Translations under genes and position numbers: made by a program | Notes under the pieces: generated by a model | Database searches by the model: none | Told to the model about the DNA's origin: nothing | Seen by the model: only the letters and a program-made list of their open reading frames with translations | Part shown: positions 50,870 to 59,593 of the stretch, piece by piece | Position numbering within the stretch: the stretch's first letter is position 1 | Layout of the letters: every line of letters starts with the position of its first letter | NCBI GenBank assembly: GCA_947625045.1 | Contig: CANQMW010000017.1 | Span: 1-64,000 of the forward strand | Length of the DNA stretch: 64,000 nt | Direction of reading: 5' to 3' | DNA from: an uncultured Oscillospiraceae bacterium | GTDB lineage: Bacteria; Bacillota; Clostridia; Oscillospirales; Oscillospiraceae

Positions 50870-52669
50870 ATGCGGAAAGAGCTTGAATATCCCTTTGACA
50901 GCCAGTATCTTCTGCGGAAGAAGAAGTCCCTGCGGCGGGAACTGCTTCAGACGCCGAACCTCATGGAGAAGCATATCGCCATCTTGGGCGGCTCAACGAC
51001 CCACGAAGTGAAGAACATGCTGGAGCTGTTCCTGCTGGACCAGGGCATCAGGCCGGTGTTTTACGAGTCGGAGTACGACCAGTACTGGCAGGATGCCATG
51101 TTCCCCAATGCCGAGCTGGAGGCGCTGGCGCCGGATGTGATATACATCCACACTACCAATCGGAACATCACCGCCTGGCCGGAGCCGGCGGACAGCCCGG
51201 AGCAGGTGGACGCCCTGCTGGAGCAGGAGTACGGCCGCTTCGCCGCCATGTGGGACAAGCTTCGGGAGAGCTATAAATGCCCCATCATCCAGAACAACTT
51301 TGAGTACCCCTTTTTCCGGCTCATGGGCAATCAGGACGCCAGCAACATCCACGGCCGGGTGAACTTCGTGACACGGCTCAACATGAAGTTCTATGAGTAC
51401 GCGCAGACCCACGACGAGTTCTATATCCACGACATCAACTACCTGGCCGGGGACTACGGTCTGGAGAAGTGGGCGGACCAGTTCTTCTGGCACATGTACA
51501 AGTACGCCATGTGCATGGACGCCATCCCCCGGGTGGCCTTCAGCGTGGCGAATATCATAAAGTCGCTGTACGGGAAGAACAAGAAGGCCTTCGCCCTGGA
51601 CCTGGACAACACCCTCTGGGGCGGCATCGTGGGGGACGACGGCGTGGAGAACCTGGCATTGGGTCAGGAGACCTCCATGGGCCAGGCCTACACGGAGTTC
51701 CAGGCTTATCTGAAGGAGCTCAAGAAGCTGGGCATCCTGCTGAACGTGGACTCTAAAAACGACCATGACAACGCTATCGCGGGGCTCAATCACCCGGACG
51801 GGGCCCTGAAACCGGAGGACTTCATCGTCATCAAAGCCAACTGGGACCCCAAGAGCGTGAATCTGGTGCAGATGGCCCAGGAGCTGTCCCTGCTGCCGGA
51901 GAGCTTTGTGTTCGTGGACGACAACCCGGCGGAGCGGGAGATCATCCGCCAGCAGGTGCCGGGCGTGGCCATCCCGCCCATGGAGAAGGTGGAGAACTAC
52001 ATCACCGTCATCGACCGATCCGGGTTCTTTGAACTGACCAAGTTCACCGGGGACGACCTGAAACGGAACGAGCAGTACAAGGAGAACGTGGCCCGGGCCC
52101 AGCTGCAGAGCAGCTTTGCAAACTACGATGACTACCTGCTGAGCCTGGAGATGTCGGCGACCATCAAGCCCTTCGAGTCCATGTACATGGCCCGGATCGC
52201 CCAGCTCACCAACAAGAGCAACCAGTTCAACCTGACCACGAAGCGGTACACCCAGGAGGAGATAGAAAAGACCGCAGCGGACGAGGGGTATGTCACCCTC
52301 TACGGCAAGCTGACGGACAAGTTCGGCGACAACGGCGTGGTGGCGGTCGTCATCGGGAAGATAGAGGACGAGCGGCTGGACATCATCCTGTGGCTGATGA
52401 GCTGCCGGGTCTTAAAGCGGGATATGGAGTACGCCATGATGGATCTGCTGGCGGAGAAATGCCGGGCACAGGGGTTGAAGGAGATACGGGGGTATTACTA
52501 CCCGACCCTGAAAAACGGCATGGTACGGGATTTCTACGCCCTGCAGGGCTTTGAGAAGATATCCGAGGACGAGGAAGGGAACACCGTCTGGAAGCTGGAT
52601 ATCAGCCAGGGATACGAGAAGAAACAGCACGTTATCGCCGTGAACGGGCAGGAAGAGCATGGAGCGTGA
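50870..52669 (+). CDS. FkbH-like HAD-IIIC family protein
   Basis: KKAFALDLDNTLWGGIVGDDGVENLALG; FVFVDDNPAEREIIRQQVPGVAIP; C-terminal GNAT-like region. Confidence 0.92.
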   Translation: MRKELEYPFDSQYLLRKKKSLRRELLQTPNLMEKHIAILGGSTTHEVKNMLELFLLDQGIRPVFYESEYDQYWQDAMFPNAELEALAPDVIYIHTTNRNITAWPEPADSPEQVDALLEQEYGRFAAMWDKLRESYKCPIIQNNFEYPFFRLMGNQDASNIHGRVNFVTRLNMKFYEYAQTHDEFYIHDINYLAGDYGLEKWADQFFWHMYKYAMCMDAIPRVAFSVANIIKSLYGKNKKAFALDLDNTLWGGIVGDDGVENLALGQETSMGQAYTEFQAYLKELKKLGILLNVDSKNDHDNAIAGLNHPDGALKPEDFIVIKANWDPKSVNLVQMAQELSLLPESFVFVDDNPAEREIIRQQVPGVAIPPMEKVENYITVIDRSGFFELTKFTGDDLKRNEQYKENVARAQLQSSFANYDDYLLSLEMSATIKPFESMYMARIAQLTNKSNQFNLTTKRYTQEEIEKTAADEGYVTLYGKLTDKFGDNGVVAVVIGKIEDERLDIILWLMSCRVLKRDMEYAMMDLLAEKCRAQGLKEIRGYYYPTLKNGMVRDFYALQGFEKISEDEEGNTVWKLDISQGYEKKQHVIAVNGQEEHGA

Positions 52670-52671
52670 CG

Positions 52672-57402: not shown

Positions 57403-57412
57403 GGTGACGACG

Positions 57413-59593
57413 ATGAAGAAAAAAAGATTTATCGAGGCGGTCGTATTTCTGGCGCTTGTCATAGGCGTCTTGGCTGCCCTCACAAAGATCACGACCAATT
57501 CAGGAGATTATCGCAACTTCCAGTGGATCCGAGGATTCTATGAGGAGAGAGAGAACTCCCTGGATGCCGTGCTTATTGGAGGGAGTACCGCATATGCCTT
57601 TTGGTGTGCACCTGTAGCCTGGGAGAATTATGGGATCACAGTTTATCCCTTTGCAAATAACAGCCAGCCTCTTGAGGCCGCTGAGTATATCATTAAAGAG
57701 GGCAGGAAAACGCAGCCAGATGCGTTATATATCGTGCTCGTCAATAATCTTTACTTTGATTACTCAGAGGCAGCGATTCATTTTGTGTTGGACTTTTTCC
57801 CGAATACAAATGAGAAGTATCAATTGACTAAAGTACTTCTTGACAATGGTGGATATGCACCTGAAGACAGGCTGGAGTTTTATGTGCCTCTATTCCGCTA
57901 CCATTCACGCTGGAATGAATTAACGAAGCTCGATTTTGATTATGAGCTTAATGGGTTAAAAGGCGGAAGTATATATAGCGGGTATTTGAAGGTCAGCAAT
58001 GACGTTTCCGCCAATTACCACAATACAGATAAACGCGCGGAGATAGATGGACGCATAGAGGAAGCGCTGGAGAATCTGATGGATTACTGCGAGGCGGAAA
58101 AGGTCAATATTCTTTTTGTGACCGAGCCGCTGGCACAACACGATGAGATCGTTGTGGCAGAATATAACACAATAAACGCGATGATAAATGAACGGGGATT
58201 TCCGACGCTAAATATGATGGATGTAATGGATGATATAGGGTTAGATCTGAAAAAGGACTACTATAACAATCATCATGTAAATATCCATGGATCTGTTAAA
58301 ACAACGGACTATCTCAGCCGGTATCTGATAGAGAACTACCATATTGAGGACAAGCGCGGTGACCCGGCATACAGCGATTGGGACGAGGCATACGACAAGT
58401 ATGTAGATATCATTGCACCGTTTGCGGTGGATTTTGAATACGCAGATACACACAGGGCCAACACGCTGCCGGCGCCGGAACTGACGGGAGTCAAAGTTAA
58501 CGGCGGAAATGCCCTCACGCTGACCTGGAAAAAAGTAAACGGCGCAGACGGCTATGGCGTCTACCGCCAAGAGGATAGGTCGGGCTGGCAGCGGATCGCT
58601 GACGTGGGAGCTGACATACTGACTTATCGGGATGAAAGCTGCATACCGACACATACGTATACCTATACGGTTGCGTCCTACAAGGTGGAAGACGGCGAAG
58701 TATACTGGGGAAGCTATGACTTTACAGGGGTAGCCGCTATCGAAGTACCACCCGCACCTGGAACACTGCAGGTTTCCAATGGTGCTGATTGCTTGTCCCT
58801 TTCGTGGGAGAAAGAAGAGGGAGCGGACGGATACCAGATATATAGAAGAGGCGCGTTAACGCGGTGGACGATGATTGCGGATATAAATGGGACGAACTAT
58901 ACGGATAAAGATTTTTTGGAGGGCATACCCTACCAGTACCGTGTCCGCGCATACAGCCTGAATGAGGCGGGCGAAAAGATCGCTGGGCTTTATTCTTATT
59001 GCATCTGGCTCCCTGAAATGACCGGCCCAGAGGTGACGGCAGAGCTCGTTGACGGTGTCCCGACCCTTACATGGCCTGAAATGGTAGGAATGACCAATTA
59101 TACCGTCACACGCAGGACCGACGGCGGAGACTGGGGACAGATCGCGGAACCGCTGGCAGCGGACTGTGTGCAGTTCCGGGATATCACCGCCACAGCGGGA
59201 GAAAGCTATGAATACCAGGTGACTGCCAATATCATCTACGCGAAGCAGACCTATACCTATCCCTCTGAAGCGGTGCAGGTCACGGCAGAGGCTGGTCTGA
59301 CAGCACTGGAGGCCCCGGAACTCCTGTTCTGCGAGCAGGTAGGCAACACGGTGCAGCTGGTGTGGGAGCCCTCTGCCAATGCTACCGCCTATCGCATATA
59401 CCGCATGGCGGAAGGGGAGGATACCTGGACGGTAGTGAATGCCTCCATTGGCGGCAATACCTACCAGGAACGGCCGCCCGCAGCGGGGACGTATACCTAT
59501 GTGCTCCAGCCCCTGCGGACAGAGAGCGGGTGTGTCTATTACGGGACATTTGACGAGAACGCCGCCGTGACCGCGGCATACGGTGTGGGTTGA
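57413..59593 (+). CDS. SGNH-hydrolase-like extracytoplasmic protein with fibronectin type III-like repeats
   Basis: N-terminal TM; LDAVLIGGSTAYAFWCAP; KKDYYNNHHVNIHGSVKTTDYLS (D..H block); four FN3-like units from ~58440. Confidence 0.82.
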   Translation: MKKKRFIEAVVFLALVIGVLAALTKITTNSGDYRNFQWIRGFYEERENSLDAVLIGGSTAYAFWCAPVAWENYGITVYPFANNSQPLEAAEYIIKEGRKTQPDALYIVLVNNLYFDYSEAAIHFVLDFFPNTNEKYQLTKVLLDNGGYAPEDRLEFYVPLFRYHSRWNELTKLDFDYELNGLKGGSIYSGYLKVSNDVSANYHNTDKRAEIDGRIEEALENLMDYCEAEKVNILFVTEPLAQHDEIVVAEYNTINAMINERGFPTLNMMDVMDDIGLDLKKDYYNNHHVNIHGSVKTTDYLSRYLIENYHIEDKRGDPAYSDWDEAYDKYVDIIAPFAVDFEYADTHRANTLPAPELTGVKVNGGNALTLTWKKVNGADGYGVYRQEDRSGWQRIADVGADILTYRDESCIPTHTYTYTVASYKVEDGEVYWGSYDFTGVAAIEVPPAPGTLQVSNGADCLSLSWEKEEGADGYQIYRRGALTRWTMIADINGTNYTDKDFLEGIPYQYRVRAYSLNEAGEKIAGLYSYCIWLPEMTGPEVTAELVDGVPTLTWPEMVGMTNYTVTRRTDGGDWGQIAEPLAADCVQFRDITATAGESYEYQVTANIIYAKQTYTYPSEAVQVTAEAGLTALEAPELLFCEQVGNTVQLVWEPSANATAYRIYRMAEGEDTWTVVNASIGGNTYQERPPAAGTYTYVLQPLRTESGCVYYGTFDENAAVTAAYGVG

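Follow-up and report, generated by a model that had tools for sequence, protein, structure and literature searches.

The window analyzed here, a 64,000-nucleotide stretch of DNA from an uncultured Oscillospiraceae bacterium, carries at positions 50870-59593 an operon of eight + strand genes. They encode, in this order, an FkbH-like protein, the N and C subunits of a transketolase-like enzyme (TKN and TKC), a MaoC-type protein, an acyl carrier protein (ACP), an SDR, an MBOAT protein and an SGNH-like protein with FN3-type repeats (SGNH/FN3). This operon is genuine and conserved, and within the literature searched it has not been described; we regard it as a variant form of MBOAT/SGNH acylation to which a thiamine diphosphate (ThDP) step that we cannot yet explain has been added. 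We lean, by a modest measure, toward the view that it is a dedicated operon for acyl assembly and export without a ketosynthase, in which the acyl group would be loaded by FkbH, remodeled on the ACP and transferred by the MBOAT/SGNH pair.

A first-pass annotation had described eight same-strand, tightly packed genes of these families, closed by a single terminator and devoid of ketosynthase, A-domain ligase and DltA. Open reading frame (ORF) positions and matches to Pfam and NCBIfam models agree with this description: the successive intergenic gaps are -4, 3, -4, 21, 6, 7 and 1 nucleotides, and no ketosynthase, A-domain ligase or DltA is encoded within the eight genes, DltA-like ligases occurring elsewhere in the genome. 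The genes and the terminator are the following.

50870-52669, + strand: FkbH-like glyceryltransferase/phosphatase with an N-domain, a HAD IIIC domain and a C-terminal domain with WLMSCRVLKR (TIGR01686, PF21211, motifs).
52666-53499, + strand: transketolase-like N subunit (TKN), ThDP-binding, with an altered pocket (H100 to E) (PF00456, 148.6 bits; residue audit).
53503-54423, + strand: transketolase-like C subunit (TKC), sugar-phosphate ligands lost (PF02779, 123.3 bits; PF02780, 69.3 bits).
54420-54848, + strand: MaoC-type hydratase/dehydratase (PF01575, 54.4 bits).
54870-55112, + strand: ACP, with Ser39 in WDSF (Ser codon 54984-54986) (NF009104, 42.3 bits, below cut-off).
55119-55853, + strand: SDR ketoreductase, FabG/YmfI-like (PF13561, 120.8 bits; NF047420, 126 bits, below cut-off).
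55861-57402, + strand: MBOAT, DltB-like, starting at an ATG inside ORF 55756 (PF03062, 44.5 bits).
57404-59593, + strand: SGNH-like transferase with C-terminal FN3-type repeats (G-x-S and H-x-N blocks; fn3; weak fold match).
59714-59750, + strand: intrinsic terminator hairpin closing the operon (minimum free energy -28.4 kcal/mol, z = -5.3 vs. shuffles).

The hairpin is directly followed on its 3' side by UUUUCC. It was found by folding against shuffled sequences and was not called by a simple terminator scanner.

TKC was used to scan the contigs of 85,488 species genomes, and four loci were returned (L119, L120, L121, and L122). In two of them the full set of eight is present in unchanged order: L119, from a metagenome-assembled genome (MAG) of an uncultured Oscillospiraceae whose isolate name, “Lapin”, we took as rabbit gut (67-95% identity), and L120, from a MAG of an uncultured Lachnospiraceae (25-89% identity). 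The FkbH proteins of the window, L119 and L120 cluster together (support 0.94). Parts of the operon are present in L121 (TKC through SGNH) and in L146, from another family (FkbH at 65%, TKC at the contig end). This neighborhood search had been named beforehand as a check that the genes are conserved together, and on that point the annotation holds; a chance gene neighborhood was rejected because the order is conserved in other genomes. In L121 (1-10010), a PolC-like and a peptidase-like gene are joined directly to TKC in mid-operon, by an assembly fault or a real truncation. The fourth locus, L122 from Omnitrophica, has TKN and TKC only, in a glycan locus. A search with TKN in 301 genomes of the family and 400 of the phylum gave no copy above 51% identity; only the contig scan with TKC did. 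Searches around G303 and G508 found no further operon, and no copy was found on viral contigs.

With 283 bits against TIGR01686, above the curated cut-off of 146.65, 49.4 bits against PF21211, and HAD motifs DLDNT, SKN, and VDDN plus the SCR motif of FkbH all kept in orthologues, the window protein is, as judged from its sequence, a clear member of the FkbH family; its structure model is of low confidence (mean pLDDT 53). An FkbH match is present in 23 of the 251 genomes of the window's family, and nearly all close copies there are flanked by an ACP and an MBOAT with an SGNH or DHHW protein. Of the orthologues that reach 55% identity and have their full context, L039 alone is without MBOAT. 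Outside the family, L147 and L148 also have MBOAT and ACP, and L147 a DHHW protein as well. FkbH, MaoC and SDR occur together without transketolase in L039, L047, L150, and L152, in glycan or sugar-acylation settings. By gene content, FkbH-ACP-MBOAT-SGNH/DHHW is a recurrent core module and FkbH-MaoC-SDR a separate recurrent unit without transketolase; on the same basis, the eight-gene operon is a rarer combined form, joining both modules with a ThDP pair. Another FkbH variant for acyl building was noticed in L038, L148, L149, and L153, where FkbH and ACP genes lie beside a glyoxalase/VOC-like gene; L149 and L153 additionally carry a ketosynthase III-like gene.

The ACP falls below the Pfam PP-binding cut-off (16.8 vs. 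20.8 bits) and matches NCBIfam ACP models, the best being NF009104 with 42.3 bits, below its cut-off of 70. Its phosphopantetheine site is DSF in the operons with transketolase and DSL in the core-module ACPs. Among the operons with transketolase, ACP identity is 87-92% despite an FkbH identity of 62-79%, whereas other pairs of loci with FkbH at 60-65% have ACPs only 45-70% identical. This suggests several ACP-bound steps; it would fit docking of the carrier with more partners, as an indirect indication. Of the possible partners, MaoC retains the GDENPLH dyad and has PhaJ-type PDB matches, and the SDR retains YVITK and matches FabG structures in the PDB.

The best PDB match of TKN is the split-chain transketolase 6yak. 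With residues numbered by Escherichia coli TktA, the pairs of the window, L119 and L120 retain the ThDP-binding and catalytic residues H26, H66, D155, E160, N185, H261, E411, and H473. In contrast, they show R358 to N or L (N in the window itself), S385G, H461G, D469L, R520M, and H100E. The same replacements are found at the readable positions of TKC in L121, and L146 has Q358, G461, and L469, with GEP at position 100 read by eye in frame before a frameshift. R358, S385, H461, and R520 are taken as the sugar-phosphate ligands of transketolase, each audited residue being given its role in transketolase structures. H461, D469, and R520 are all retained in 16 sampled transketolases including TktA, and several other divergent ones retain only some of them. 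With its phosphate site lost, TKN/TKC is unlikely to transfer ketose phosphates in the ordinary way. The annotation's statement that transketolases move C2 ketol units, taken in its usual meaning, finds no support for this pair, as R358, S385, H461, R520, H100, and D469 are replaced in every full copy examined. A central-metabolism transketolase was rejected by the ligand audit and by a second, normal-looking pair on contig C21 of the same genome, which retains all audited residues except S385 (A).

Phosphate-site loss alone is no proof of an ACP-bound substrate, because L123 and L122 share most of it. These two loci (L123 in G329, L122 in Omnitrophica) lie in a glycan setting that includes radical SAM-like genes, and their transketolase-like pairs, from which most phosphate ligands are gone, form an unassigned ThDP subfamily. 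Hence the transketolase-like pair might make or lengthen a sugar precursor of a glycan (a nucleotide keto-sugar, for example), while the other six genes would by themselves produce a simple acyl group (lactyl or glyceryl, for instance) and transfer it, the operon being shared only because both activities serve one polymer. In favor of this explanation, L123 and L122 are the nearest relatives and their glycan loci have no ACP, the C7 glycan locus of the window's genome has its own transketolase pair with a different pocket, and FkbH-MaoC-SDR is found without transketolase. We nevertheless consider it unlikely. In all full copies the TKN and TKC genes are packed in between those of FkbH and MaoC, with overlaps, and the ACP is far more conserved where transketolase is present. 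Moreover, H100 is replaced by E in all readable FkbH-linked copies and, among the copies compared, in these only, R358 being lost there too. In the TKC tree, the FkbH-linked copies (window, L119, L120, L121, L146) form one clade (support 0.85) beside L123 and L122.

At the transferase end, the MBOAT keeps the FWHG histidine and ends in the hexapeptide FIYEQF (57382-57399); F[IL]Y..F stands at the C-terminus of all 16 MBOATs compared. The Tyr of such a hexapeptide becomes acylated in PatA, and the equivalent Tyr of DltX is described as a shuttle to DltD (PMC12148441). FIYEQF at the end of the MBOAT thus gives good support to a putative acyl relay of the Dlt/PatA type, in which the SGNH serine would receive the group from the MBOAT Tyr. 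Among the family assignments, SGNH is the least secure and draws on relatives, conserved blocks and a weak fold match. The window protein has no SGNH Pfam match of its own and conserves the G-x-S and H-x-N blocks; its relative in L037 has a GDSL match of 2.6e-5. Its model is of low confidence (mean pLDDT 51), with fold matches mostly to SGNH/GDSL proteins including PatB (E >= 0.004). For DltD (PF04914), the window protein has no match and the L037 relative only 14 bits (cut-off 22.7).

With Dlt (DltA-DltC-DltB-DltX-DltD), the operon has in common a carrier-bound acyl group, a DltB-like MBOAT, an SGNH partner and a Tyr hexapeptide shuttle. However, it is without DltA, has FkbH as loader, acyl-editing enzymes and the ThDP pair, and its hexapeptide is fused to the MBOAT, with no DltX gene. 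A true Dlt operon was rejected: DltA is not in the operon, the MBOAT scores 122.5 bits against the DltB model TIGR04091 (cut-off 375), and the DltD Pfam model has no match. The DltA-like matches on contigs C7 and C24 (314.5 and 299.4 bits) are themselves below the TIGR01734 cut-off of 559.85. From the annotation's description of a Dlt-like acylation operon, a conserved unit with a carrier-fed MBOAT/SGNH pair and FkbH replacing DltA is supported, and the ordinary transketolase role is not. With PatA/PatB and other fused-hexapeptide MBOAT-SGNH transferases, the operon shares the pairing of an SGNH protein with an MBOAT that carries FxYxxF at its C-terminus, but it co-encodes a dedicated ACP and its own loader; non-Dlt MBOAT/SGNH pathways are stated to have no carrier protein, acetyl-CoA being the PatA donor (PMC12148441).

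In the scheme that we infer for every reaction and the order of the steps, for the C2 donor, the acceptor polymer and the product, FkbH would dephosphorylate 1,3-bisphosphoglycerate and load Ser39 of the ACP with glyceryl, a C3 unit. FkbH-type formation of glyceryl-ACP has been proposed for tetromadurin (PMC7489565). MaoC would then take the 3-OH off glyceryl-ACP, giving pyruvyl-ACP, to the keto group of which the ThDP pair, lacking a sugar-phosphate pocket, would add a two-carbon unit. The resulting 3-oxoacyl-ACP would be reduced by the FabG-like SDR to a branched polyhydroxy acyl-ACP; in the variants without transketolase, the action of MaoC and SDR would end with lactyl-ACP. Across the membrane, the MBOAT would hand the ACP-borne acyl group to the Tyr of FIYEQF, from which the SGNH protein would pass it on to an exported, probably teichoic-acid-like polymer at one of its hydroxyls. 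This use of MaoC, ThDP pair and SDR is the most economical chemistry, with described parallels for the first and last enzyme functions only. That the pair makes a carbon-carbon bond on the FkbH-made, ACP-bound C3 unit, giving a new C5 hydroxyacyl group that MBOAT/SGNH would place on a wall polymer, is a more tentative proposal, to which we give somewhat less than an even chance.

Known FkbH pathways (methoxymalonyl-ACP, tetronate glyceryl-ACP) also combine an FkbH-like protein with a stand-alone ACP. Unlike them, the operon has no FkbG/FkbI/FkbK set and no FabH-like ketosynthase, but MaoC, a FabG-like SDR and the ThDP pair, and it feeds an MBOAT rather than a polyketide synthase; neither the FkbI acyl-CoA dehydrogenase nor the FkbG methyltransferase of the methoxymalonyl-ACP pathway is in the operon. 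A split ThDP enzyme working with an ACP is known from QncN/QncL/QncM (quinocarcin) and SclQ1-4 (scleric acid); such enzymes make a glycolyl unit in quinocarcin and are proposed to do likewise for scleric acid (PMC6335953). The pair of the operon could accordingly make its own short acyl-ACP, for example glycolyl-ACP, in parallel to FkbH. We hold this to be improbable, since those clusters have a lipoyl/acyltransferase (E2-like) domain, encoded by none of the eight operon genes, and the ketose-phosphate ligands are lost here. That the operon yields a small soluble or lipid product and not a surface-polymer modification is more improbable still: FkbH, an ACP and reductases are a set typically seen where polyketide precursors are made, but the MBOAT has its Tyr hexapeptide and an SGNH partner, and exporter and teichoic-type genes adjoin the operon.

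Two further features precede the operon.

50353-50733, + strand: ABC transporter ATPase remnant (PF00005, 28.5 bits, partial).
50796-50840, + strand: two palindromes, in tandem, within the leader of the operon; likewise at L119 2212-2256 and in L156.

In place of the remnant, L119 has an intact ABC-2 permease and ATPase (PF01061, PF00005) directly upstream, and an RmlB-like gene (labeled by eye) also lies directly upstream of the operon there. Downstream on the window's contig are DUF4422, LicD-like, IspD/TarI-like cytidylyltransferase, epimerase, TagF-like glycerophosphotransferase and YfhO genes. An exporter together with TagF-like, LicD and IspD-like neighbors makes a teichoic-acid-like acceptor likely; judged from neighbor genes only, the acceptor is probably a surface glycan of this kind. 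A 60-nucleotide direct repeat (78%) flanks the operon (50437-50496, within the ATPase remnant, and 60101-60160), which suggests past recombination or cassette insertion. In the leader, a loop-free palindrome comes first and a TGCTG...CAGCA hairpin follows; the arms differ between the window and L119 with pairing kept. This pair of palindromes also precedes a different MBOAT gene of the genome (L156, G000:C2, about 66508-66548), where it follows a promoter-like TTGACA/TATAAT. The palindromes are possibly a regulatory leader; Rfam gave no over-threshold match for it, and the genome has no LoaP-type antiterminator above its cut-off.

A second glycan locus of the genome (L054, G000:C7:25001-45000) encodes a DltA-like ligase, MBOAT, SGNH/FN3, DUF4422 (80%), LicD and IspD. 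It also has a divergent TKN/TKC pair of its own, after which come genes for SDRs, an ACP and enzymes of acyl-activating type. The window SGNH protein is 52% identical to the SGNH/FN3 protein of this locus, where the MBOAT adjoins the DltA-like ligase; thus, the genome seemingly uses two different loaders to feed one kind of transferase.

Gene content, gene order, conservation, motifs and lost ligands can be read directly in the sequence. Several points weigh against acyl assembly and export. Apart from the window, every operon copy belongs to a draft genome or MAG; the L121 copy has neither FkbH nor TKN, being cut off at a contig junction, and TKN of L146 is frameshifted. The window SGNH protein has Asn where most related proteins carry the Asp of the D-x-x-H dyad. 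Neither ACP nor FkbH is present in the L123 and L122 glycan loci, so that TKN/TKC might instead have a sugar as substrate. Our preferred reading, which names no C2 donor, is drawn from sequence. No paper joining FkbH with MBOAT, MaoC or polysaccharide was found in the literature searched, which largely excluded subscription journals; within that scope, the annotation's suggestion of an undescribed system stands.

Acyl groups on wall polymers influence surface charge and host interaction. Dlt is the only characterized MBOAT/SGNH pathway described with a carrier protein (PMC12148441). If our reading is true, the operon would represent a second carrier-fed type of MBOAT/SGNH system, loaded by FkbH from glycolysis, so that gut Firmicutes would acylate their walls from central metabolites, and in its form with transketolase ThDP chemistry would be put to a new use, on an ACP.

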